A model generated the notes under the pieces. That model did no database searches, was not told the DNA's origin, and saw only the letters and a list, made by a program, of their open reading frames with translations. A stretch of 45,580 nt of DNA, taken from Acidobacteriota bacterium (GTDB lineage Bacteria > Acidobacteriota > Terriglobia > Bryobacterales > Bryobacteraceae). Of this stretch, positions 13,145 to 22,779 are shown in pieces. The translations under genes were made by a program, and so were the position numbers. Location of the stretch: positions 1-45,580 of the forward strand of contig JAFKEE010000065.1 in the NCBI GenBank assembly GCA_017307505.1, read 5' to 3'. The stretch's first letter is position 1, and every line of letters starts with the position of its first letter.

Positions 13145-14002
13145 ATGTTGGTTATTGCTGGAGTCCTGGTCGTCATTGGTGCGATCGTCGGCGGCTATCT
13201 GCTGGAGAAGGGCAACCTGCTGGTGCTCATGCAGCCCGCCGAACTGCTCATTATTGGAGGAGCCGCGCTGGGTACGCTGCTCATTGCCAATCCGCCGCAC
13301 ATCATGATGAGCATCCTGAAAGGCCTGCCAGGCACTATCAAAGGGAGCAAGTTCGGCAAGGCTTACTTCACGGAAACGTTGAAGATGCTCTACGACCTGT
13401 TCGTCTACATCCGCAAAGTCGGCCCGGCCGCGGCGGAAGCCGACGTCGAGGATCCCAAGAGCAGTTCGGTCTTCTCGCAGTTTCCCAAGCTGCTGGCGGA
13501 TCATCACGCGCTCGATTTCGTCTGCGACACGCTGCGCACTTACTCCAGCGGCACCGTCGGCCACTTCGACATCGACCAGATGATGGAATCCGACATGGAA
13601 GTCCAGCAGCACGAGCGCGAGGTCCCTGTGGCTTCCCTTTCCACCGTCGCCGACAGCCTGCCCGGCCTGGGCATTGTCGCCGCCGTGCTGGGTGTCGTCA
13701 TCACCATGGGCGCGCTGGGCGGACCGCCGGAGGAGGTCGGCCATAAGGTCGCCGCCGCGCTGGTCGGCACATTCCTGGGGATTCTCCTGTGCTATGGCTT
13801 CGTCGGACCCCTGGCCGCCAACATGGCCAAGATCAACGAGTCCGAGGCTCACTATTATCAGGTGCTGCGCAAAGGCATCGCCGCCTTCACCAAGGGCATT
13901 GCTCCGCTCATCGCCGTGGAATCGGCGCGCCGGGCCATTCCTGCGCACGTCCGCCCCACCTATAAGGAAATGGACCAGGCCTGCCGCAAGTCCGCCGGCT
14001 AA
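13145..14002 (+). CDS. motA: Flagellar motor stator protein MotA
   Basis: MotA and MotB form the ion-conducting stator that powers rotation. The 285-residue protein begins MLVIAGVLVVIGAIVGGYLL EKGN, with four predicted membrane helices; ALLIIGGAALGTLLIAN, SLSTVADSLPGLGIVAAVLG VVITMGALGGP and VGTFLGILLCYGFVGPLAAN are MotA/ExbB signatures. Residues of the cytoplasmic loop (VESDMEVQQHERE region) are present. A GGGGAGGAG ribosome-binding site precedes the ATG. It is the long, MotA-type form rather than PomA-type, suggesting proton coupling, but this cannot be settled by eye. Confidence 0.93.
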   Translation: MLVIAGVLVVIGAIVGGYLLEKGNLLVLMQPAELLIIGGAALGTLLIANPPHIMMSILKGLPGTIKGSKFGKAYFTETLKMLYDLFVYIRKVGPAAAEADVEDPKSSSVFSQFPKLLADHHALDFVCDTLRTYSSGTVGHFDIDQMMESDMEVQQHEREVPVASLSTVADSLPGLGIVAAVLGVVITMGALGGPPEEVGHKVAAALVGTFLGILLCYGFVGPLAANMAKINESEAHYYQVLRKGIAAFTKGIAPLIAVESARRAIPAHVRPTYKEMDQACRKSAG

Positions 14003-14014
14003 GGAAGCGACTTC

Positions 14015-14848
14015 ATGGCAGCCGATTCCCAACAACCCATCATTGTCGTCAAGAAGATCAGCCACGGCGGCCACCATGGAGGAGCCTGGAAGGTCGCCTA
14101 CGCCGACTTCGTCACGGCTATGATGGCCCTCTTCATCGTCCTCTGGCTTCTCAATTCCAACCAGAAGATCCAGAAGGCCGTCGGCGGCTACTTCAACGAC
14201 CCCAAAGGCCAGGGCAAGATGGTGGGCAGCACCAAATCAGCCAGCGGCGAGGGCATGTCCATCCGCAAGGAAGAGATGTCCGAGTTGAAGCAGCGCATCG
14301 AAGCCGCCATGAAGAAGGAGATCAAGGATTTCGACAAGCTGCGCGAGTTTGTCGAGATCACCATCACCGAGGAAGGTCTGCGTGTAGAACTGATGGAGTC
14401 CGCCAAGAGCACGTTCTTCGAACGCGGCCGCCCCGAACCTACCGCCGATGGCAAGGAAGTTATCGAGATGCTGGCCGCCCAGCTGGCCCATCTGAAGAAT
14501 AAGCTCGTCATCGAAGGCCATACCGACGCCAAGGCGTTCGGCACCCCCGAAGGGTACAGCAACTGGGAGCTTTCCGCCGACCGCGCCAACGCAGCACGAC
14601 GCCTGATGGTCACGCACGGCGTGGAGAATCACCAGATCGCCCAGGTGCGCGGCTTTGCGGATCAACGCCTGCGCAAGAAGGACGATCCGGAAGCTGACTC
14701 GAATCGCCGCGTCTCGGTCATCGTTCGCTTTGAAGACGATCCGGGGACGGATGAAAAGGCCGGATCCGAGCAAGGTCACGGCCAGGGTAAGGCCGAGCCC
14801 AAGGCCGAGGGCAAGTCTGAACCCAAGGCCGAGGGCAGCCACCACTAA
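14015..14848 (+). CDS. motB: Flagellar motor stator protein MotB
   Basis: The 277-residue protein has a short cytoplasmic N terminus with the MotB pattern GGHHGGAWKVAYADFVTAMM, a single transmembrane helix containing the essential ion-carrying aspartate (Asp31), a plug/linker, and a C-terminal OmpA-like peptidoglycan-binding domain (about residues 120-245: LVIEGHTDAK, WELSADRANAARRLM, NRRVSVIVRF). The last 30 residues are a charged, degenerate repeat (AEPKAEGKSEPKAEG) ending in Ser-His-His. AAGGAAG precedes the ATG. Its stop overlaps the stop of the convergent downstream gene. Confidence 0.95.
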   Translation: MAADSQQPIIVVKKISHGGHHGGAWKVAYADFVTAMMALFIVLWLLNSNQKIQKAVGGYFNDPKGQGKMVGSTKSASGEGMSIRKEEMSELKQRIEAAMKKEIKDFDKLREFVEITITEEGLRVELMESAKSTFFERGRPEPTADGKEVIEMLAAQLAHLKNKLVIEGHTDAKAFGTPEGYSNWELSADRANAARRLMVTHGVENHQIAQVRGFADQRLRKKDDPEADSNRRVSVIVRFEDDPGTDEKAGSEQGHGQGKAEPKAEGKSEPKAEGSHH

Positions 14849-15534
14849 CTGACGAGCGTATCGGCCGCGGGCGCGTTGGCCATCTGCATCATCTGCTGGA
14901 CCGACGAAACCGTGACATCCGGCGTCCGCAGCGTGGCCGCCGCGTCAAAATCCATCTTCTGCCCGTTCGGCGTCTGCACCGTGATGGATTTGTTGATGTA
15001 GTTGCCGCCCGGATACCAGACCAGCTCTTCCCAGTACGACACCTTCACATTGGCAGGATCCACGCCGGCCTTGGTCAACGCGCTATTCAACGCCGCGCGG
15101 GTCTCCGGGCCGAGCGTGGAAGGTACCGACGGTTTCACCCGCGTCATGTTCCACTGCGCCGCCGGGCTGGGGTCCAGTTCGGTGTTGTCCAGGCTATAGG
15201 TAATCGCCACCGCGGAGCCGTCGTCTGCCGTGGCCGTGCTGCCGGCCGCCGAACCGCTGGCCGGGCTGGTCGCCGTCGTGGTGTCAGAAATCTGACTCCC
15301 CGCCGTGGAACTTGACGCTTCATTCTTCGATGCCAGGGCGACAGCCAGAAAGGGAGTCATTCCCGGAGTCGTCGTCTCGGCCGAGGCGTCCGCGGCCGTC
15401 TGCTCGCTGGTCGACTGTAACTCGTCGCTAAAGCTGCCTTTGAGGCTGTTTTCCAGCGCGCTGTTTAATCCTTTGCCCTGGCCCATGGCCGAGAGCAGTT
15501 CACCCAGAGACTGGCCTGCACGATCGATTCTCAT
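14845..15534 (-). CDS. Hypothetical protein convergent with motB
   Basis: I do not recognise this 229-residue protein. The N-terminal third (MRIDRAGQSLGELLSAMGQG) is followed by a Ser/Thr/Ala-rich linker (about residues 55-110), and a more structured C-terminal half with WEELVWYPGGNYINKSITVQ and TPNGQKMDFDAAATLRTPDV, ending TVSSVQQMMQMANAPAADTL. There is no signal peptide or membrane helix. ATG at 15534 has a weak GGACAG upstream; the frame stays open to 15756 but that would cross the divergent phosphatase start. It abuts the flagellar cluster, so a motility link is possible. The Ala/Thr/Ser linker and size resemble flagellar accessory proteins, but no function is claimed. Confidence 0.7.
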   Translation of the reverse strand: MRIDRAGQSLGELLSAMGQGKGLNSALENSLKGSFSDELQSTSEQTAADASAETTTPGMTPFLAVALASKNEASSSTAGSQISDTTTATSPASGSAAGSTATADDGSAVAITYSLDNTELDPSPAAQWNMTRVKPSVPSTLGPETRAALNSALTKAGVDPANVKVSYWEELVWYPGGNYINKSITVQTPNGQKMDFDAAATLRTPDVTVSSVQQMMQMANAPAADTLVS

Positions 15535-15619
15535 AGCTGTCCAGCCTGAATACTTGCACGGCTTAGTCCAAACTCGACGGGCGAGAATCACTACTCTAAA
15601 GAGAGGAGTTCTTACCATC

Positions 15620-16714
15620 GTGCGCATTCTTCGTACCTCTCTGGCCCTCGCCTTGGCCTTCTCCGCCCTCGTCTCTGCCGGTGAAAAAAAGGCAAAGAAC
15701 ATTGTCCTCTTCCTCGGCGACGCGGGCGGCATCCCCACACTGCATGCCGGTTCCATCCAGGCCTACGGCAAGCCCAACGCCCTCTTTATTCAGCGGATGC
15801 CCAACATCGGCCTGTCCGACACTTCAGCCGCCAACAATTGGGTAACGGATTCGGCCGCCGGCATGACCGCCATTGTCACCGGCCAGAAGACGAACAACGG
15901 TGTCATCTCGGAAGCAGCGCCTGCCGCGGGCCAGACCAGCGGCGCCGCCCTGAAGACCATCCTCGAATACGCCGAAGAGCACGGCCTCTCCACCGGAGTC
16001 GTTTCCAATAGCGCCATGGCCGACGCCACGCCCGCCGCCTGCTATGCGCACGCCCCCAGCCGCAAAATGCTCGGCGAGATCTTTGCCCAGGTGTGGAAGC
16101 CGCGTTTCGGCGACGGGGTCGACATCGTGTTCGGACCCGGCCGCAAAGCCATCACCACGGCCACCACCGCTTTGGGCTTGAATATGGAGACCGAACTCAA
16201 GAATAAGGGCTACTTCTACGGCTCCGCGCTGAAGGACGTGCCGGCCGGCACCAAACGCGCGGTGGTCCTCACCGACGACGCCGACTTTGACGTCACCTCG
16301 GCCACCAACGCCGCCATCGAGATCCTGTCGAAGAATCCCAAGGGCTTCTTCCTCATGGTCGAATCCGACCTGCACACCGACAAGATCGACCGCGGCCTGG
16401 CCCGCATTCCCGTCGTCGACAAACTGGTGGAAAGCACGGCCACGAAGCTGCAGTCGAACACCCTGGTCCTCTTTACCGCCGACCATTCCTTCGACCTGCG
16501 CACTGTCGGTCTCGCCAAGGGCACGCCCTACTTCACGCCCGGCGCTGACGGCAAGCCGGTCTCCAACAAGGGTGTCGTGATCCAGGGGAAGCACTCCGGC
16601 GAGCAGGTCCTGGTGGCCGCCACCGGACCCGGCTCCAGCCGTGTGAAGGGCTTCCTTGTGAACACCGACCTTTTCGACATCATGATGGCTGCCTACGGCT
16701 GGAAGGCCGATTAG
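15620..16714 (+). CDS. Alkaline phosphatase, PhoA superfamily, exported
   Basis: This gene encodes a secreted phosphomonoesterase. The start is GTG at 15620 with AGGAG about 11 bases upstream, giving a signal peptide (VRILRTSLALALAFSALVSA) and a 364-residue precursor. Catalytic landmarks are KNIVLFLGDAGG (metal-binding Asp34), NWVTDSAAGMTAIVTGQKT (Asp77 and nucleophile Ser78), GFFLMVESDLHTDKIDRG, VLFTADHSFDLR (Asp-His metal ligands), and GKHSGEQVLVAATGPGS (His ligand). The usual segment MVEGGRIDHAGH is MVESDLHTDKIDRG here, so one metal-ligand region deviates from the E. coli-type enzyme and substrate or metal preference may differ. It is divergent from the hypothetical gene on the other side. 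Confidence 0.87.
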   Translation: MRILRTSLALALAFSALVSAGEKKAKNIVLFLGDAGGIPTLHAGSIQAYGKPNALFIQRMPNIGLSDTSAANNWVTDSAAGMTAIVTGQKTNNGVISEAAPAAGQTSGAALKTILEYAEEHGLSTGVVSNSAMADATPAACYAHAPSRKMLGEIFAQVWKPRFGDGVDIVFGPGRKAITTATTALGLNMETELKNKGYFYGSALKDVPAGTKRAVVLTDDADFDVTSATNAAIEILSKNPKGFFLMVESDLHTDKIDRGLARIPVVDKLVESTATKLQSNTLVLFTADHSFDLRTVGLAKGTPYFTPGADGKPVSNKGVVIQGKHSGEQVLVAATGPGSSRVKGFLVNTDLFDIMMAAYGWKAD

Positions 16715-16729
16715 GCACCCGGATTCTGC

Positions 16730-16761
16730 GGCGAGGACAGGCCCGCGGGTCTGTCCTCGCC
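16730..16761. terminator. Bidirectional hairpin terminator candidate between convergent genes
   Basis: GGCGAGGACAG (16730-16740) and CTGTCCTCGCC (16751-16761) form a perfect 11-bp stem with a 10-base G+C-rich loop. It lies 16 bases after the phosphatase stop and 26 bases after the convergent gene's stop. No U-tract follows in either direction. Confidence 0.65.
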
Positions 16762-16786
16762 ATTGCCTCATCCGGAGACGACCGTC

Positions 16787-17314
16787 TCAAGGCGTGGCAG
16801 TTGGCGCCACCGCCGCCCAGGGCAGCCCGAACGGATTGTCCGAGCTCATACGGGTACCCGGAGGAAAGACATAGATGTGGTTGACGTTCACATACAGAGC
16901 GGCAACCCCACCCGTTACCTCCGGCGGAATGATGACATCGCTACCGGTTGCCAGCGTGACACACCCCTCATTCACTTCAATCGTGCCGTCCGGCTTGTAC
17001 TCCGCGATCGCCACACCATAACTGGAAGCCGATGTCTGCGGTTGCTCCAGGCAGTAATCCTGTTCCCCCAGATAGGTCTTCAGCTGCGCCAGATTCTCGG
17101 TTGAATCCGCGATGGCCACCACGGTCAGCCAGTCCTGGCTCCCCAGATCGCTATAGGCTGGGATGTCCAGCCCGCCCTTGGTCAGCACATTGCACCGGTC
17201 GGTGCCGAAGAGCTGGATGTGCTCGGTCACAATCGATGGCTTGGTGCTCTGGCTGCCATCCTTTTCTCTAAAATCGATGGTGACGGTCGTCCCTTTATCA
17301 ATCCTTGCGCCCAT
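16787..17314 (-). CDS. Hypothetical 175-residue protein divergent from the YcaO gene
   Basis: I do not recognise this protein. It starts at ATG 17314 with AGAGG just upstream, and has no signal peptide or membrane helix. It looks beta-rich (VTIDFREKD, DWLTVVAIADS, GVAIAEYKPDGTIEV, VAALYVNVNHIYVFPPG) with three cysteines (41, 88 and 118) and many Ser/Thr, and ends PWAAVAPTATP. It shares a 99-bp divergent promoter region with the YcaO gene, so it could be the substrate, partner or a co-regulated protein of that enzyme; this is inference from position alone. It is larger than normal RiPP precursors and shows no Gly-Gly or other leader cleavage motif. Confidence 0.72.
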   Translation of the reverse strand: MGARIDKGTTVTIDFREKDGSQSTKPSIVTEHIQLFGTDRCNVLTKGGLDIPAYSDLGSQDWLTVVAIADSTENLAQLKTYLGEQDYCLEQPQTSASSYGVAIAEYKPDGTIEVNEGCVTLATGSDVIIPPEVTGGVAALYVNVNHIYVFPPGTRMSSDNPFGLPWAAVAPTATP

Positions 17315-17413
17315 GAACCTCTTCCTCCCTTTGCCTTACTCTTCTGTGGCAGACAACCGGGCAAGCAAGCCCAGCCCCACCCATTGCGTCGATCGTGAAG
17401 ATCAAACGGATCC

Positions 17414-19114
17414 ATGCCAGGCACCTTCTACAGCCCCGCGCCCCTGACTGGACTCGCCCGCGCTTTTGGCGACGAAGTCACGGCCTGGTGGACCGAAGCA
17501 CCCCGTGACGCTGTCCTGTGCCTTTGCCAGGGCCTGCACGATTACGGGTTTCTGCTGCCGGGTCTGCCGCAGCCGTCGATCCTTCTCCTCTTCCTGACTG
17601 ATTGCGTCGTCCTGGCCCGCTTTCAGGACTCACGCTCCTGTGGCCAATGTCTCCTGCACTGGCTCTCGATTACCCAGTTTCATCGGCAGTCGGCGCCGGA
17701 AACTCCACCCTCGGAAGTAGCTCCTTTGATGGGAGCCCTGCTCCGGCGCTCCCTCGAGGCCGCCGAGCCTCCGGCGGGCACTGTGACCGTGCACCACTAC
17801 CACTCAGGCAAGATCTCCCGCCACTTCGTGTATCCGCGCAGGAACTGCCAGGCGTGCGCGTCCAGCCAGTTCTCCGGTGATCTTCCCTTGCAGGCCCATT
17901 GCAGCCCGGTTACCGGCATTGTCGACCGTGTCGAGGTGAGCGCCGCATCCTCCGCCGGAGCCTTTCGTGCCCATGCCGTCTGGAACAGTCCCCTGCCTGT
18001 CAACCGGGCCCGGCCGCCGCTGCGCCGGCAGGCCTCTTACGGACGCGGACGCACCGCCGCGGAAGCCGTCGACGGAGCCATCGGTGAAGCCTTGGAACGC
18101 TACAGTCTCATCTATCGCGGGGACGAGCCCCTCATCCGCGCCAGGGCCTCTGACCTCGACATCCTCCACCCTGATTCCATCCAGCTTTACAGTGCCGCCC
18201 AGTATGCCCGGCGCGCCCACTGGAATGCCCTGCCCGATGAGATCTTCCACATCCCGGATCCGTTCGATCCCGGCCGTCCGCTGGACTGGCTCGAAGCCCG
18301 CGATCTCCATAGCGGACCGTCCCGTTACGTCCCCGCCGCCTGCTGCCTCATGTGGTATCAGTTCCAACCCGGCGAGCCGCGATTCGCCAGCGCCGACACT
18401 ATCGGCTGCGGCAGCGGCCGCACCGTCGACGACGCCCTCGCCCACGCTCTGCTGGAATGGATCGAACGCGACGCCATGTCGCTCTGGTGGTACAACCGCG
18501 CCCGCCGCCCGGCCGTCCGCCTGGAGTCGTTCGAGGATCCGCAGCTCCTGGCCGCCGCCGAGTCCCTGCGCGCCATCGGACGCCGTCTCTACCTGCTCGA
18601 CTGCACAACGGACTTCGGCATCCCCGTCTACGTCTCCGTAGCCCCGCGTCTCGACGGCTCAGAGATCCTCTTCGCGTCCGCCGCCCACCCCTCGCCCCGC
18701 GTCGCCGCCTGGAAGGCCGCCAGTGAAGCGGCGCAGGTCTGGACCACGGCCCAGACCACAGGCCGCCTGCCGGACTCCCTGCGGCCCTGGCTGCTGCAGG
18801 AAACGCTCTCCTCGCAGCCCTACCTCGAGCACCACGGTGAAATCGACGCCCCACCCGAGCCGCCGCCCCTCACCACGACGGAACAAATCGCCTTGATTCT
18901 GGAAAGGCTGCGGGCCGCGGGGCTCAGCGCCTATTCTGTCGATCACAGCCGCCCGGACGTCGTCCTTCACACCGCGCGCGCCATCGTACCCGGCCTCCGC
19001 CACATCTGGAACCGACGCGCTTCCGGCCGTCTCTACGACATCCCGCCGCGTCTGGGCTGGCTGCCAGGACCGTTGACCGAGGACGAGCTGAACCCCATCT
19101 GCTGCATGATCTGA
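17414..19114 (+). CDS. YcaO-type cyclodehydratase with partial E1-like N-terminal domain (TOMM-like)
   Basis: YcaO enzymes use ATP to activate peptide amides, making azolines, thioamides or amidines. Residues about 190-566 are the YcaO domain with its three ATP-site motifs: ASYGRGRTAAEAVDGAIGEA LERY (about 207-230), TIGCGSGRTVDDALAHALLE WIERDA (about 329-353) and AAHPSPRVAAWKAASEAAQV. Residues 1-190 match the C-terminal part of the Ocin-ThiF/E1-like partner of TOMM cyclodehydratases, with a tetracysteine zinc site: CGQC (76-79) and CQAC (145-148). The leader-binding winged-helix (RRE) region that normally starts the E1-like protein is not visible. The C terminus is ELNPICCMI, not the proline-rich PxPxP tail of azoline-forming enzymes. 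Its last 82 bases overlap the convergent kinase gene. Confidence 0.88.
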   Translation: MPGTFYSPAPLTGLARAFGDEVTAWWTEAPRDAVLCLCQGLHDYGFLLPGLPQPSILLLFLTDCVVLARFQDSRSCGQCLLHWLSITQFHRQSAPETPPSEVAPLMGALLRRSLEAAEPPAGTVTVHHYHSGKISRHFVYPRRNCQACASSQFSGDLPLQAHCSPVTGIVDRVEVSAASSAGAFRAHAVWNSPLPVNRARPPLRRQASYGRGRTAAEAVDGAIGEALERYSLIYRGDEPLIRARASDLDILHPDSIQLYSAAQYARRAHWNALPDEIFHIPDPFDPGRPLDWLEARDLHSGPSRYVPAACCLMWYQFQPGEPRFASADTIGCGSGRTVDDALAHALLEWIERDAMSLWWYNRARRPAVRLESFEDPQLLAAAESLRAIGRRLYLLDCTTDFGIPVYVSVAPRLDGSEILFASAAHPSPRVAAWKAASEAAQVWTTAQTTGRLPDSLRPWLLQETLSSQPYLEHHGEIDAPPEPPPLTTTEQIALILERLRAAGLSAYSVDHSRPDVVLHTARAIVPGLRHIWNRRASGRLYDIPPRLGWLPGPLTEDELNPICCMI

Positions 19115-21261
19115 TCGTCGAAGTGCAGCCTCCGCAACAGCGCCACAAACCGCGCGTCGCCATGCAGCGGCTTCAGCACGGGACTCGTCGCAATCGACAG
19201 CAGCGTCGTGTCCCGCCGTTGATACGCCCGGTCCAGCCATGCCATCGCCTGGTCCGCTTCGCCTAACTGTGCGTAGACACCCGCAATCAGCAACCCGTCC
19301 ACGGAGCTCGTCTTCGAAATCTGCTCCAGGCGGGCCAGCAGCCGTCGCGCCTCGTCTTTGCGCCCGCGGAACGCCTCCAGCGAAGCCCGTTCCGCCATCA
19401 CGGTCACGGCCGGATACTGCAGTTTCTCGGTGAAATCCAACTCCTCCTGCGCCTCCGCATAGCGCCCCTGGTGCTTCAGCAGCCGCGCATTCAAATACCG
19501 CGTCAAGCCGAAGTTCGGAAAGGTCACCAGTTGCTCGCGCAGGTGTTCCTCCATCAGGTCCAGCCGCCCCGACGTCCAGTAGAGGAACGCCAGCTCGCTC
19601 CACACCATCGGCTCCTTCTGCCGGCTCAGCGTCAGCGCCAGGCGGTCGTGCGTCTCCGCATCCCGATACCGGCCCCGCTTCCGCAGATGCACGCCAAACC
19701 AATAGTGGAGCTGCCAGTCGTTCCCATCCAATTCCACCGCGCGCTGGAACGACTTTTCGGCCTTCGGCCACTCCTCCAGATCCAATGACTGTACCCACCC
19801 GAGGGCGCCATAGGCCCGGCTCGAATCGCTGTCCAGCCGGATCGCCTCCGCGGCCGCCCGCCGCGCCTCTTTCGTCGCGACCGCCGAAGGCAACGACGCC
19901 GCGTTGGCCGCGGTCGCGTAGGCATAGGACAGATCCGCCCAGGCCTGCGCCCACTTCGGATCCAGCTCCGTCGCCCTGCGGAATCCCTCCACCGCCTCGA
20001 TGTGCCCCTGCTTCGTCTGCGTACTCTGCTTCACCCGCGCCACATCGGCGGCCAGCAACGCTTCCGGCGCCGGTTGATGCGGACGCCGGATCACCCACAC
20101 CGCGACGGCCAGCAGGATCATCGCCGCCAGAGCCAGCGCCGACCAGCGGCGCGCGGGCGTCCAGGCAAACCGGCCTTCCATCCGCCGCACCACCGCCACC
20201 GCACTGGTTGGACGCCCGGCCGGATCCCGGGTCAGGCACGCCTGCACCGCCTCATTCCAGCGCCGCGGCACGCCCTGCATCGGCGGGGCATCCTGCGTCA
20301 TCCGCAGCCACGCCGTCTCCGTCGCGGTCGTGCCCTGGAACGGAGTCTGCCCGGTGAGCATCTCGTACAGCACAATCCCAAACGAGTAGATGTCCGCCGG
20401 TGGCCCCACGGGCGCCCCGCCCACCTGCTCCGGAGCCATGTACATCGGCGTGCCTTCCATCGCACCCCGTTCCATCCGCCCCGAATCCCATTCACTCACC
20501 GCAGTGTCCGATTCCGGCCGCGCCGCCGCCGCCAGGCCGAAGTCCATCACCACGGCGCGTTCGCCGCCGTCCAGGTTCCGGGCCAGCACCACATTGCCGC
20601 TCTTGAAATCCCGATGGACGACACCCGCCGCATGCGCCGCATCCAGAGCCTCCGCGAGTTGCCGGGCGACTGCCAAAGCGTGCTCCGGCTTCAGCGCCCC
20701 GTCCCGGCGCAGCCGCTCCGCCAGATTCTCGCCCTCCAGCAACTCCATGGAGAGGAACACGACGGAGCGCCGCTGTCCGTCCAGTTCCACCTCGTGCCGG
20801 AACAGATCGTAGACCCGCGCAACATGCGCATGGGTCACCCGTCGCGAAAGCTGGATCTCCTGCTTGAACCGCGCCAGGATCTCTTCACTGCGCACCAGCA
20901 GCGGCCGGATCGTCTTCAGCGCGACCTGGCCGCCCAACTCCAGGTCCGACGCGGCATAGACCTCGCCCATGCCGCCTTCCGCCAGGAACCGCTCAATCCG
21001 GAACCGGCCGGCCACGGTCTCGCCCGGCAGAAAGGTCCGCATCCCGGAGGCTACAATCTCGGCCGCACGCTTCATGGAAAGGACGGGGCCCGCCAGAACC
21101 GAGGCCGCGGCATCGTGATGCGCCAGCAGTTGCAGCAGCGAGAGCTCCATCGAGGGATCGCCGGCGCAGGCGCCATCCACAAAGGCCACTCGCTGCGTGT
21201 CGTCCAGCTCCATGGCCTGCTCGAACAGCTCCTTGAGCGCCGCCCAGCGTTCCGCGCTCAT
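19033..21261 (-). CDS. Membrane-anchored Ser/Thr protein kinase with C-terminal TPR region
   Basis: The 742-residue protein has a short N-terminal helical region, then a Hanks-type kinase domain at about residues 80-330: glycine loop FLAEGGMGEVYAA, VALKTI lysine, catalytic loop VVHRDFKSGN (Asp218; Phe replaces the common Leu), DFG, and MYMAPEQVGG. One transmembrane helix (about 372-390, WSALALAAMILLAVAVWVI) separates it from a periplasmic TPR array (YAYATAANAASLPSAVATKE, SFQRAVELDGNDWQLHYWFG and similar units). It starts inside the stop codon of the ECF sigma gene (ATGA overlap), so kinase and sigma are produced together and probably form one signalling unit. The final 27 residues are disordered and overlap the YcaO gene on the other strand. 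Confidence 0.93.
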   Translation of the reverse strand: MSAERWAALKELFEQAMELDDTQRVAFVDGACAGDPSMELSLLQLLAHHDAAASVLAGPVLSMKRAAEIVASGMRTFLPGETVAGRFRIERFLAEGGMGEVYAASDLELGGQVALKTIRPLLVRSEEILARFKQEIQLSRRVTHAHVARVYDLFRHEVELDGQRRSVVFLSMELLEGENLAERLRRDGALKPEHALAVARQLAEALDAAHAAGVVHRDFKSGNVVLARNLDGGERAVVMDFGLAAAARPESDTAVSEWDSGRMERGAMEGTPMYMAPEQVGGAPVGPPADIYSFGIVLYEMLTGQTPFQGTTATETAWLRMTQDAPPMQGVPRRWNEAVQACLTRDPAGRPTSAVAVVRRMEGRFAWTPARRWSALALAAMILLAVAVWVIRRPHQPAPEALLAADVARVKQSTQTKQGHIEAVEGFRRATELDPKWAQAWADLSYAYATAANAASLPSAVATKEARRAAAEAIRLDSDSSRAYGALGWVQSLDLEEWPKAEKSFQRAVELDGNDWQLHYWFGVHLRKRGRYRDAETHDRLALTLSRQKEPMVWSELAFLYWTSGRLDLMEEHLREQLVTFPNFGLTRYLNARLLKHQGRYAEAQEELDFTEKLQYPAVTVMAERASLEAFRGRKDEARRLLARLEQISKTSSVDGLLIAGVYAQLGEADQAMAWLDRAYQRRDTTLLSIATSPVLKPLHGDARFVALLRRLHFDDQIMQQMGFSSSSVNGPGSQPRRGGMS

Positions 21262-21827
21262 GAGGACGCCAGCTCTTTGCGCAGCCACGCGCGAGCCATG
21301 CTCCAGTCCCGCTTCACCGTGCGCACCGAAAGGCCCAACGCCCCGGCGATCTCTTCCAGGTCGAAACCGGCGAAGTAGCGCATCACCACTACCTGCGCCT
21401 GCCGCTCGTCCAGCGCCTCCAGCTTCGTCAGCAGCCGGTCGATCTCGATCACCACGTCGGGCTTCTCACTCGTCACCAGATGCCAATCCTGGATCTCGGC
21501 CGCCACCCCGCCGCCGCCCCGTTTCAACGAGCGGTATTGCCGCGCATGATCCACCAGAATCTGCCGCATCACCTGCGAGGCCACGGCGAAGAAATGCCCG
21601 CGGTTTTGCATCGACCAGTCGCCGTTGCCCGCCAGCTTGACGAACGCTTCGTGCACCAGCGCCGTCGGCTGCAGCGTGTGGTCCAGCCGCTCGTGCTGCA
21701 TCTGTTTCGAGGCAATTCGTTTCAATTCCGGATAAACGGCGGCCGCCAGGCGGGTGCGCGCCGCCACATCCCCTTGCCGCATGCTCTGCAGCAGGAAAGT
21801 GATCTGGTCCTCAGGCGTTTCACCCAT
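21258..21827 (-). CDS. ECF-type RNA polymerase sigma factor (Sig-70_X6 type)
   Basis: The 189-residue protein has sigma region 2 (LYPELKRIASKQMQHE-like segment, with TLQPTALVHEAFVKLAG and FFAVASQVMRQILVDHARQ) and region 4 with a helix-turn-helix (DERQAQVVVMRYFAGFDLEE IAGALGLSVRTVKRDWSMAR AWL). This pattern is that of the acidobacterial/planctomycete Sig-70_X6 ECF family, whose members are commonly encoded next to Ser/Thr kinases instead of anti-sigma factors. Here the downstream gene is such a kinase, overlapping by four bases, so activation by phosphorylation is likely (known for ECF/kinase pairs such as EcfP/PknT). No anti-sigma gene is visible. It is divergent from the M23 peptidase. Confidence 0.93.
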   Translation of the reverse strand: MGETPEDQITFLLQSMRQGDVAARTRLAAAVYPELKRIASKQMQHERLDHTLQPTALVHEAFVKLAGNGDWSMQNRGHFFAVASQVMRQILVDHARQYRSLKRGGGGVAAEIQDWHLVTSEKPDVVIEIDRLLTKLEALDERQAQVVVMRYFAGFDLEEIAGALGLSVRTVKRDWSMARAWLRKELASS

Positions 21828-21912
21828 TGCGTCTAACCGGTGCGGATCTTCATTTTAACGCACCACGGCAGGGGTCCCGGCGCTTCCCGCATTCTCGGTA
21901 CCATGTCTGAGA

Positions 21913-22779
21913 ATGCCCTCCGCGCCGTCTTCCTTCCTCCTGCCGCTGCTGGTACTCCTTCCTTCCCTCGCTCCGGCTCAAGCGCCTCTCTCGGTCAAGC
22001 AGGGCGAGGTCCTTCGCTTCTCCTCCACCGCGGCCTTTGCCCATGTGCTGGATCGCAGGTTTCCGATTTACGATGGCACCGCACTCATCCCCAGTGCCGT
22101 GATCGACAAACCTGGCGATTACCCGCTCGAATTGCTCTCGAAGGACGGCAAAATCCTGGAAACCCGCACCCTCACCGTCCTGGATGCCCACTACCTCACC
22201 CAGAACGTCGCCCTCTCCAAGGAGGTCGTCGAGCTCAAGCCTTCCCCGGGTGAGATGGAAACCGTCAATGCTCTCAAGAAACTCGAAACACCAGTCAAAC
22301 ACTGGAGTGAGCCCTTCCTTGCCCCCGTCCCCGGCTGCATCAACTCCCCCTTCGGCGTCCAGCGCTATCAGAACGGCAAACCCACCGGGAACTACCATGC
22401 GGGAGTCGACCAGCGCGGTCCCACCGGCAAACCTATTGCCGCCGCTGCCGCCGGCACGGTGCGCATGGTGCGTTCCTACAACATCCACGGCAACGTGGTT
22501 GGCGTCGACCACGGCCAGGGCGTCGTCTCCATCTACCTGCACATGTCGAAGATCGCGGCCCATGAAGGCGACGAGGTGAAAGCCGGAGACACCCTCGGCT
22601 ACGTCGGGATGACCGGCCGGGCCAACGGTCCGCACCTTCATTGGAGCCTTTACGTCCACTCCATCGCGGTGAATCCTACGAAGTGGGCCCCTTTAACGGC
22701 CTGCGCCGCCGCCTCTCCAGCGAAGAAACAGCCTTTGCGGAAGCGTCCGGCGCCCGGCACGAAACGCAGGCAAGGCTGA
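21913..22779 (+). CDS. Secreted M23-family metallopeptidase (LytM-type)
   Basis: The 288-residue protein begins with a signal peptide (MPSAPSSFLLPLLVLLPSLA PAQA), followed by an about 110-residue beta-rich domain and a C-terminal peptidase M23 domain. The zinc-site residues are intact: His162 and Asp166 in NYHAGVDQRG, and His241/His243 in GPHLHWSLY; VGVDHGQGVVSIYLHMSKIA supplies the other histidine at about 210. Such enzymes cleave peptidoglycan cross-bridges in the periplasm. The tail is basic (KKQPLRKRPAPGTKRRQG). A convincing ribosome-binding site is not seen. It is divergent from the ECF sigma gene by 85 bp. Confidence 0.92.
   Translation: MPSAPSSFLLPLLVLLPSLAPAQAPLSVKQGEVLRFSSTAAFAHVLDRRFPIYDGTALIPSAVIDKPGDYPLELLSKDGKILETRTLTVLDAHYLTQNVALSKEVVELKPSPGEMETVNALKKLETPVKHWSEPFLAPVPGCINSPFGVQRYQNGKPTGNYHAGVDQRGPTGKPIAAAAAGTVRMVRSYNIHGNVVGVDHGQGVVSIYLHMSKIAAHEGDEVKAGDTLGYVGMTGRANGPHLHWSLYVHSIAVNPTKWAPLTACAAASPAKKQPLRKRPAPGTKRRQG

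Follow-up and report, generated by a model that had tools for sequence, protein, structure and literature searches.

The question raised by the YcaO gene at 17414-19114 of contig JAFKEE010000065.1, from an Acidobacteriota bacterium of the Bryobacteraceae (genome G000), is which genes it works with and what its product may act on. The window analysed was 45,580 bp long. YcaO enzymes of the thiazole/oxazole-modified microcin (TOMM) type are usually regarded as makers of peptide antibiotics which require a leader-binding RiPP recognition element (RRE). The initial annotation described a "stand-alone" YcaO whose only partner was a 175-amino-acid (aa) protein. It was found instead that a Ser/Thr kinase and an extracytoplasmic function (ECF) sigma factor belong to the same conserved block, and a co-inherited cassette of four genes (16787-21827) is well supported. 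Because the kinase and sigma factor are co-inherited, the YcaO is probably part of a regulated cassette and the "stand-alone" description does not hold. The features of the block are:

16787-17314, minus strand: gene of the 175-aa protein, the proposed substrate; open reading frame (ORF) divergent from YcaO
17315-17413, no strand: intergenic sequence of 99 bp common to the divergent pair
17414-19114, plus strand: YcaO gene, ORF of 566 aa, identified by Pfam, TIGR03604 and relatives of solved structure
17639-17650, plus strand: CGQC (residues 76-79), zinc pair 1 of the E1-like half
17846-17857, plus strand: CQAC (residues 145-148), zinc pair 2 of the E1-like half
18041-19000, plus strand: YcaO ATP-dependent catalytic domain (Pfam), with EALERYS and EWIERD motifs
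19091-19111, plus strand: C-terminal tail NPICCMI, standing where a PxPxP-like tail is expected
19033-21288, minus strand: Ser/Thr kinase with a hydrophobic stretch and tetratricopeptide repeats (TPR), identified by Pfam Pkinase and TPR
21258-21827, minus strand: ECF sigma factor (TIGR02999, 206 bits, cut-off 126.15)

The kinase gene lies tail to tail with the YcaO gene and overlaps its 3' end by 82 bp. The kinase and sigma factor genes are joined by ATGA, the sigma stop overlapping the kinase start, and the probable kinase start is the ATG at 21261. The order of the block is kept in G006, a genome of the same genus, where the YcaO is 81% and the small protein 92% identical to those of the window. 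In G005, also of the genus, the YcaO is 66% identical and two tandem small genes are present, their products 75% and 60% identical to the 175-aa protein. A block was found in a genome of another family, G210, using an alignment of four small proteins against 399 genomes of the class (E 5e-7). Its divergent YcaO is 48% identical and ends NPICCMI, two distant copies of the 175-aa protein gene lie beside it, and kinase and sigma factor are in the same arrangement. G210 was alone among 300 genomes sampled from its family in having such a YcaO (E<=1e-60), and transfer of the whole block is a likely explanation. The 175-aa gene accompanies the window type of YcaO in all four genomes with that clade (G000, G005, G006, G210), so the co-occurrence that the initial annotation proposed to look for is present. 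Neither gene was found in six of nine genomes of the window's genus, some of those six being incomplete. A genome-contig scan with the YcaO query found no relative.

The spread of the kinase association was surveyed using a 12-row YcaO alignment against 237 genomes of the window's family. Matches at E<=1e-50 were found in 26 genomes, in 29 places. Thirty-two loci were examined with their flanks (designated by L numbers below), comprising 28 of the 29 places together with the G210 locus and three more from a related family. A kinase gene was 0-94 bp from YcaO in 15 of the 32, tail to tail in every case, and these 15 loci span 11 genera. A sigma factor lay within 6 kb in 12 of the 15; the contig of L107 ends inside the kinase. 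Kinases of genome G000 number 30 at E<=1e-20 across 9.39 Mb, from which approximately 0.6% of genes would be expected to have a kinase stop no more than 1 kb from their own stop (a rough binomial for G000 only). The 15 of 32 are therefore far from chance, even with shared descent. A SagB-like gene was present within 2.5 kb in 11 of the 32 loci, none of them among the kinase-linked 15.

YcaO and kinase have diverged together. Their distance matrices, compared without a species-tree control, were correlated with r = 0.92 across the 15 loci (0 of 10,000 permutations as high). The correlation was 0.71 without L038 and L039 (13 loci, 0 of 10,000) and 0.74 when G210 was also removed (12 loci, 1 of 10,000). 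The kinase tree contained 33 sequences, the 15 linked kinases and 18 of the 29 other kinases of G000. Fourteen of the linked kinases and one other, G000:C51, were placed on one branch with a support of 100/100. The window's group of eight was identical in the YcaO and kinase trees. In both trees the second locus of G005 (L040) groups with G1020 and not with the first G005 locus, and G210 groups with the window. More than shared species history is indicated, as these two groupings recur in both trees.

The YcaO protein itself was examined for its domains. The Pfam YcaO model scored 247.9 bits over residues 210-529, which together with EALERYS and EWIERD bears out the ATP motifs of the initial annotation. 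The two cysteine pairs of the reported tetracysteine zinc site were located, and all four cysteines are invariant across the four-member clade. The match to TIGR03882, the E1-like docking domain, was 16.3 bits (cut-off 36.9). The closest solved structures were LynD, MusD and TruD, with alignment only from residue ~161 to the end (230-239 bits). Mean predicted local distance difference test scores of single-sequence AlphaFold models were 38.0 for the YcaO and 39.8 for the 175-aa protein, too low for a fold search. As reported, there is no PxPxP tail. The tail NPICCMI is identical in G005, G006 and G210, and is NPIPCMI in G1093. Three of the kinase-linked relatives, L107, L109 (395 aa) and L111 (410 aa), showed no CxxC pair. 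Judged from these alignments, the window YcaO is a remnant E1-like half and a YcaO catalytic domain preceded by a short N terminus.

The length of the N terminus bears on the RRE. Across nine relatives, 23-25 residues separate the start of the TIGR03882 match from the first CxxC pair, which by position leaves ~50 residues before the E1-like region in the window YcaO. Short forms have 46 (G009) and 62 (G210) residues, and longer relatives have 114-117 (L040, L104), 148 (G1093), 165 (G041), 167 (G011) and 197 (G070). The reading frame is open for just 5 further codons upstream of the YcaO start. An RRE is 80-90 residues in size. By length and alignment a leader-binding RRE is thus predicted not to fit, in agreement with the absence of an RRE first reported. 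No PqqD-type domain was matched in the G000 genome.

A precursor peptide is also given no space. The intergenic gaps measure 99 bp within the divergent pair, 72 bp on the far side of the 175-aa gene and 85 bp ahead of the sigma factor gene, and therefore leave no intergenic room for a precursor gene. No leader-core precursor was found in the gaps of the cassette, ORFs within other genes not being judged, and within that intergenic scope the reported lack of an adjacent short precursor stands. There is no SagB-like gene within 2.5 kb of the window YcaO, as expected from the reported lack of a dehydrogenase. No TfuA was matched by Pfam among nine window proteins (13145 to 22779), where none had been seen before.

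These results make it improbable that the YcaO is an ordinary TOMM cyclodehydratase with a short precursor elsewhere in the genome and a kinase and sigma factor that merely regulate it. The YcaO is nearest to LynD, MusD and TruD, its TIGR03604 score of 216.1 bits is 3 bits short of the cut-off (219.25), and the kinase-linked relative L104 is above it (229.8 bits). Genomes of the same family or order also have ordinary-looking clusters, with Cys-rich ORFs in L115 and L116 and nitrile hydratase leader peptide (NHLP)-like ORFs in L049. However, with no room for an RRE and an E1-like half below cut-off, a leader peptide would be left without a known binding site. No SagB-like gene is nearby, and G000 as a whole has one SagB-family match above cut-off, located on a different contig.

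The ordinary-looking clusters were recorded separately. Precursor-like ORFs with CCCCTPCCSCC stretches lie beside YcaO and SagB-like genes at L115:10533-10922 and L116:7787-8245, and L115 also has ThiF. At L049:5477-8129 two near-identical ORFs ending CCCCA, in inverted arrangement, lie beside a LynD-like YcaO; these we take to be NHLP-like precursors.

A degenerate YcaO that no longer serves catalysis, and is retained to bind or regulate in an ATP-dependent way, would account for changes specific to the clade, namely the tail and ADTIG, which is found in 4/4 members while 14 of 28 other alignment rows have D[ST]NG. It is nevertheless highly improbable, given that EALERYS and EWIERD are kept and that the catalytic half is constrained. 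The ratio of nonsynonymous to synonymous divergence (dN/dS) between the window and G006 is 0.098 for residues 161-566 and 0.308 for residues 1-160.

The small divergent protein is the likeliest substrate. Sequence upstream of YcaO was available for 13 of the 15 linked loci and an uncharacterised small divergent protein was encoded in 11 of these. L104 is included in the 11 although its small gene and YcaO are now separated by a Y1-type (IS200-like) transposase gene (L104:7154-7729). The proteins are 90-243 aa long, with L104 at ~300 aa with an internal repeat. Copies are doubled in G005 and G210, and as an internal repeat in G1020. A GT41 glycosyltransferase gene directly follows the small gene in L045 and L105, and a subtilase gene adjoins it in L109. 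The case for a substrate is that the small protein is almost always beside YcaO, is doubled in three loci, varies with the YcaO lineage and adjoins another tailoring-type gene in three loci. The proteins are demonstrably related only inside the window-G210 group and the G005-G1020 pair. The 175-aa protein had no match in Pfam, NCBIfam or PHROG, nor in plasmids or phages, and the small proteins of all 11 loci gave nothing above cut-off in Pfam. The DNA pattern of NPICCMI had no match in viral contigs.

The 175-aa gene is under purifying selection. Its dN/dS against G006 is 0.055, the lowest in the cassette, which is due to its high dS (1.165 compared to 0.54-0.58). Its dN of 0.064 resembles those of the kinase (0.058), sigma factor (0.052) and catalytic part of YcaO (0.057), and the idea that it is the most constrained gene was dropped. 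Other candidates were also set aside. A Ser/Cys-rich strand alignment between the small proteins of different lineages looked promising by eye and scored as reversed controls did in profile comparisons. In the genome-contig scan the 175-aa alignment matched a single place, L052, judged to be an FGTDRCN stretch that occurs by chance within an ORF resembling sugar transferases, and L057 (G407, E 0.005) was judged a chance match.

The main rival, which we consider unlikely, is that the 175-aa protein is an adaptor that replaces the lost RRE and E1-like half and presents the YcaO with a peptide or protein whose gene lies elsewhere. YcaO enzymes without an RRE ordinarily work with a separate partner protein. 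The YcaO has no room for an RRE, its E1-like half is degenerate, no PqqD-type domain was matched in G000, and the sole TIGR03882 match above cut-off there is in another YcaO, the third of the genome. On the other hand, the linked YcaOs of L101 and L045, which have a longer N terminus and TIGR03882 above cut-off, also have a small divergent protein, so this protein is not restricted to enzymes with lost N termini. The 175-aa protein also had no match to RRE or E1 families in Pfam or NCBIfam.

It is also rather improbable that the YcaO acts on another protein of the cell, for example a housekeeping protein, the sigma factor or the kinase, and that the small protein regulates or protects. YcaO enzymes are known to act on folded proteins, in the thioamidation of McrA and in an accessory role on S12. 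Purifying selection on the small gene would suit such a role, and the folded-protein models TIGR03266 and NF040716 match the window YcaO, though below cut-off. Between lineages in which kinase and sigma factor remain recognisable, however, no similarity of the small proteins was detected, as would be expected if they were a diversifying substrate, and the GT41 and subtilase genes of three loci adjoin the small gene.

The regulators were then considered. A hydrophobic stretch is visible between the kinase and TPR parts of the kinase, which may be receptor-like and located in the membrane. It scored 131.4 bits against TIGR03903, the TOMM system kinase/cyclase fusion (cut-off 705.75), matching in the kinase part only, and membership was ruled out by this score. 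A Hanks-type kinase gene adjoins the ECF sigma gene through the ATGA overlap. Kinase genes also lie next to their sigma genes in the ECF43 pairs EcfK/PknS and EcfP/PknT, whose sigma factors are activated by their kinases (PMC13147305). PknS phosphorylates EcfK, and a QTTA motif in ECF43 replaces acidic residues of other ECF factors (PMC13147305). Region 2.2 of the window sigma factor bears LQPTALVHEA, and the region is Q[PA][TS][AD] in all 12 sigma factors beside linked YcaOs. A Thr motif in region 2.2 is shared by ECF43 and the window sigma factor, which belongs to TIGR02999, and the likeness is one of motif and gene pairing. The EcfK unit controls a type VI secretion system (PMC13147305), and the window unit is proposed to control the YcaO pair. 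Regulation of the small gene and of YcaO divergent from it is the likeliest function of the kinase and sigma factor.

Taken together, the reading preferred here, to which we give about an even chance, is a co-inherited protein-modification cassette of four genes, controlled by kinase and sigma factor, with the small protein as substrate. The receptor-like kinase, through its kinase domain, hydrophobic stretch and TPR part, would sense a signal and activate the co-encoded sigma factor, probably by phosphorylating the Thr of QPTA in region 2.2. The sigma factor would turn on the divergent pair of 175-aa protein and YcaO. The YcaO, with its RRE gone and its E1-like docking half largely lost, would bind the small protein directly and use ATP to activate a backbone amide. 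An azoline on Ser, Thr or Cys is the most likely product because the YcaO is related to LynD and TruD, and the ring would be left unoxidised as no dehydrogenase is linked. The earlier suggestion of a YcaO modifying a folded protein is in part retained. Action on a protein-sized partner is a fair reading since no RRE fits and the two genes co-occur in 4/4 genomes; the co-inherited kinase and sigma factor had been missed.

Several observations weigh against the preferred reading. There is no direct evidence of modification, and a shared promoter motif was not demonstrated. Shared species history could supply part of the distance correlation, and the kinase of L107 falls off the 100/100 branch. 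At L103, which is SagB-linked, a kinase lies ~3.4 kb from YcaO, and no kinase of this sort was present in the ~1.5-kb flanks of ten YcaO loci that represent other families in the phylum. A kinase adjoins 14 of the 15 strong sigma factors of G000, so the kinase-sigma pair is not special to YcaO. The motif Q[PA]TA occurs also in the sigma factor of L114, which is not beside a linked YcaO, and in that of C51, and therefore belongs to a wider group; 2 of the 12 linked sigma factors retain Asp in the region 2.2 motif. The Thr-to-Ala variant of EcfK at the motif site remains functional (PMC13147305). Among the 13 loci, 2 are without an uncharacterised small divergent partner (at L107 the divergent gene encodes a PEP-CTERM protein, and L111 is without a divergent partner), and the small proteins of different lineages were not shown to be related, profile scores being no better than those of reversed controls. 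The 175-aa protein evolves slowly (dN 0.064), unlike the usual precursor core, and has no Ser/Thr/Cys-rich tail (5 of the last 40 residues). Conservation does not extend to every one of its cysteines, and one of the G210 copies is cysteine-free.

Among known systems the fused cyclodehydratases of the cyanobactin type, LynD, TruD and MusD, are similar in that the YcaO half aligns from ~161 with two CxxC pairs before it. They differ from the window YcaO, which has no room for an RRE, an E1-like half below cut-off and the NPICCMI tail. In the window locus no leader-bearing precursor was seen and a kinase and sigma factor are linked. In Burkholderia, Acidovorax and Delftia, TOMM clusters have NHLP-Burk precursors and a large Ser/Thr kinase (PMC2887384), so a kinase with TOMM genes is not new as such. 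A Ser/Thr kinase gene beside TOMM-type genes is shared with the window. The window kinase differs in having TPR repeats, lying tail to tail with YcaO and being paired with an ECF factor, and the window locus in having no NHLP-like precursor adjacent. YcaO-TfuA thioamidation pairs have an ATP-dependent YcaO, as in the window, but the window cassette is without TfuA. In titles and the openings of abstracts, with subscription papers mostly outside this scope, no YcaO was described together with a kinase-sigma pair or with partners of protein size.

Two other YcaOs were found in G000. The gene after the second (413 aa, G000:C67, L047:9282-12021) encodes a TfuA-like protein (Pfam PF07812), and this YcaO and the TfuA-like protein are by sequence a likely thioamidation pair. 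The third (617 aa, G000:C1, L048:8884-11017) has an E1-like half above the TIGR03882 cut-off. The gene before it encodes a 96-aa protein whose tail is rich in Lys and Ala, and by eye no kinase or SagB is adjacent.

Further neighbours in the window were alkaline phosphatase, MotA and MotB by Pfam. An M23 peptidase gene (21913-22779, plus strand) is divergent from the sigma factor gene and starts 85 bp beyond it. The reported absence of an adjacent protease holds for the cassette and has to be qualified for its immediate surroundings. An ORF of matching start, length and opening residues is in the same position in G005 and G006 and not in G210, and the peptidase was left out of the cassette because it is absent from the G210 block. 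A pattern scan of the locus found no sigma-70-like promoter, and terminators were not above those of shuffled sequences. Inverted repeats with 6-bp arms lie just before the YcaO start in G006 and G005; the window has only GATC arms (17391-17403). These could be an operator or chance. PADLOC gave no match for the YcaO, 175-aa protein or sigma factor. The kinase's PADLOC matches were confined to the kinase domain and taken as cross-hits, and a defence system was rejected.

The kinase on the shared branch that was not linked to a YcaO, G000:C51, lies in a locus (L135:6991-12573) with a sigma factor, a small protein of 67 aa and a TPR protein of 676 aa whose GT41 domain is of the O-GlcNAc-transferase type. 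This locus has no YcaO and is possibly a sister modification system. With L045, L105 and L109 it indicates that at least some kinases of the branch are accompanied by a small protein and by a potentially protein-modifying enzyme. A wider signal-gated family, in which a co-inherited kinase and sigma factor would control a YcaO that needs no leader peptide and acts on a lineage-specific protein of 90-240 residues, with GT41 replacing or joining the YcaO in sister systems, is put forward tentatively, as possible rather than probable. Were it true, such systems would yield a protein of the cytosol that carries a heterocycle in its backbone, as opposed to a secreted peptide. The YcaO and the 175-aa protein make a defined pair for a simple test. 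The branch predicted to lack an RRE, with its receptor-like kinase, sigma factor and protein-sized partners, points to regulated modification of the protein backbone.

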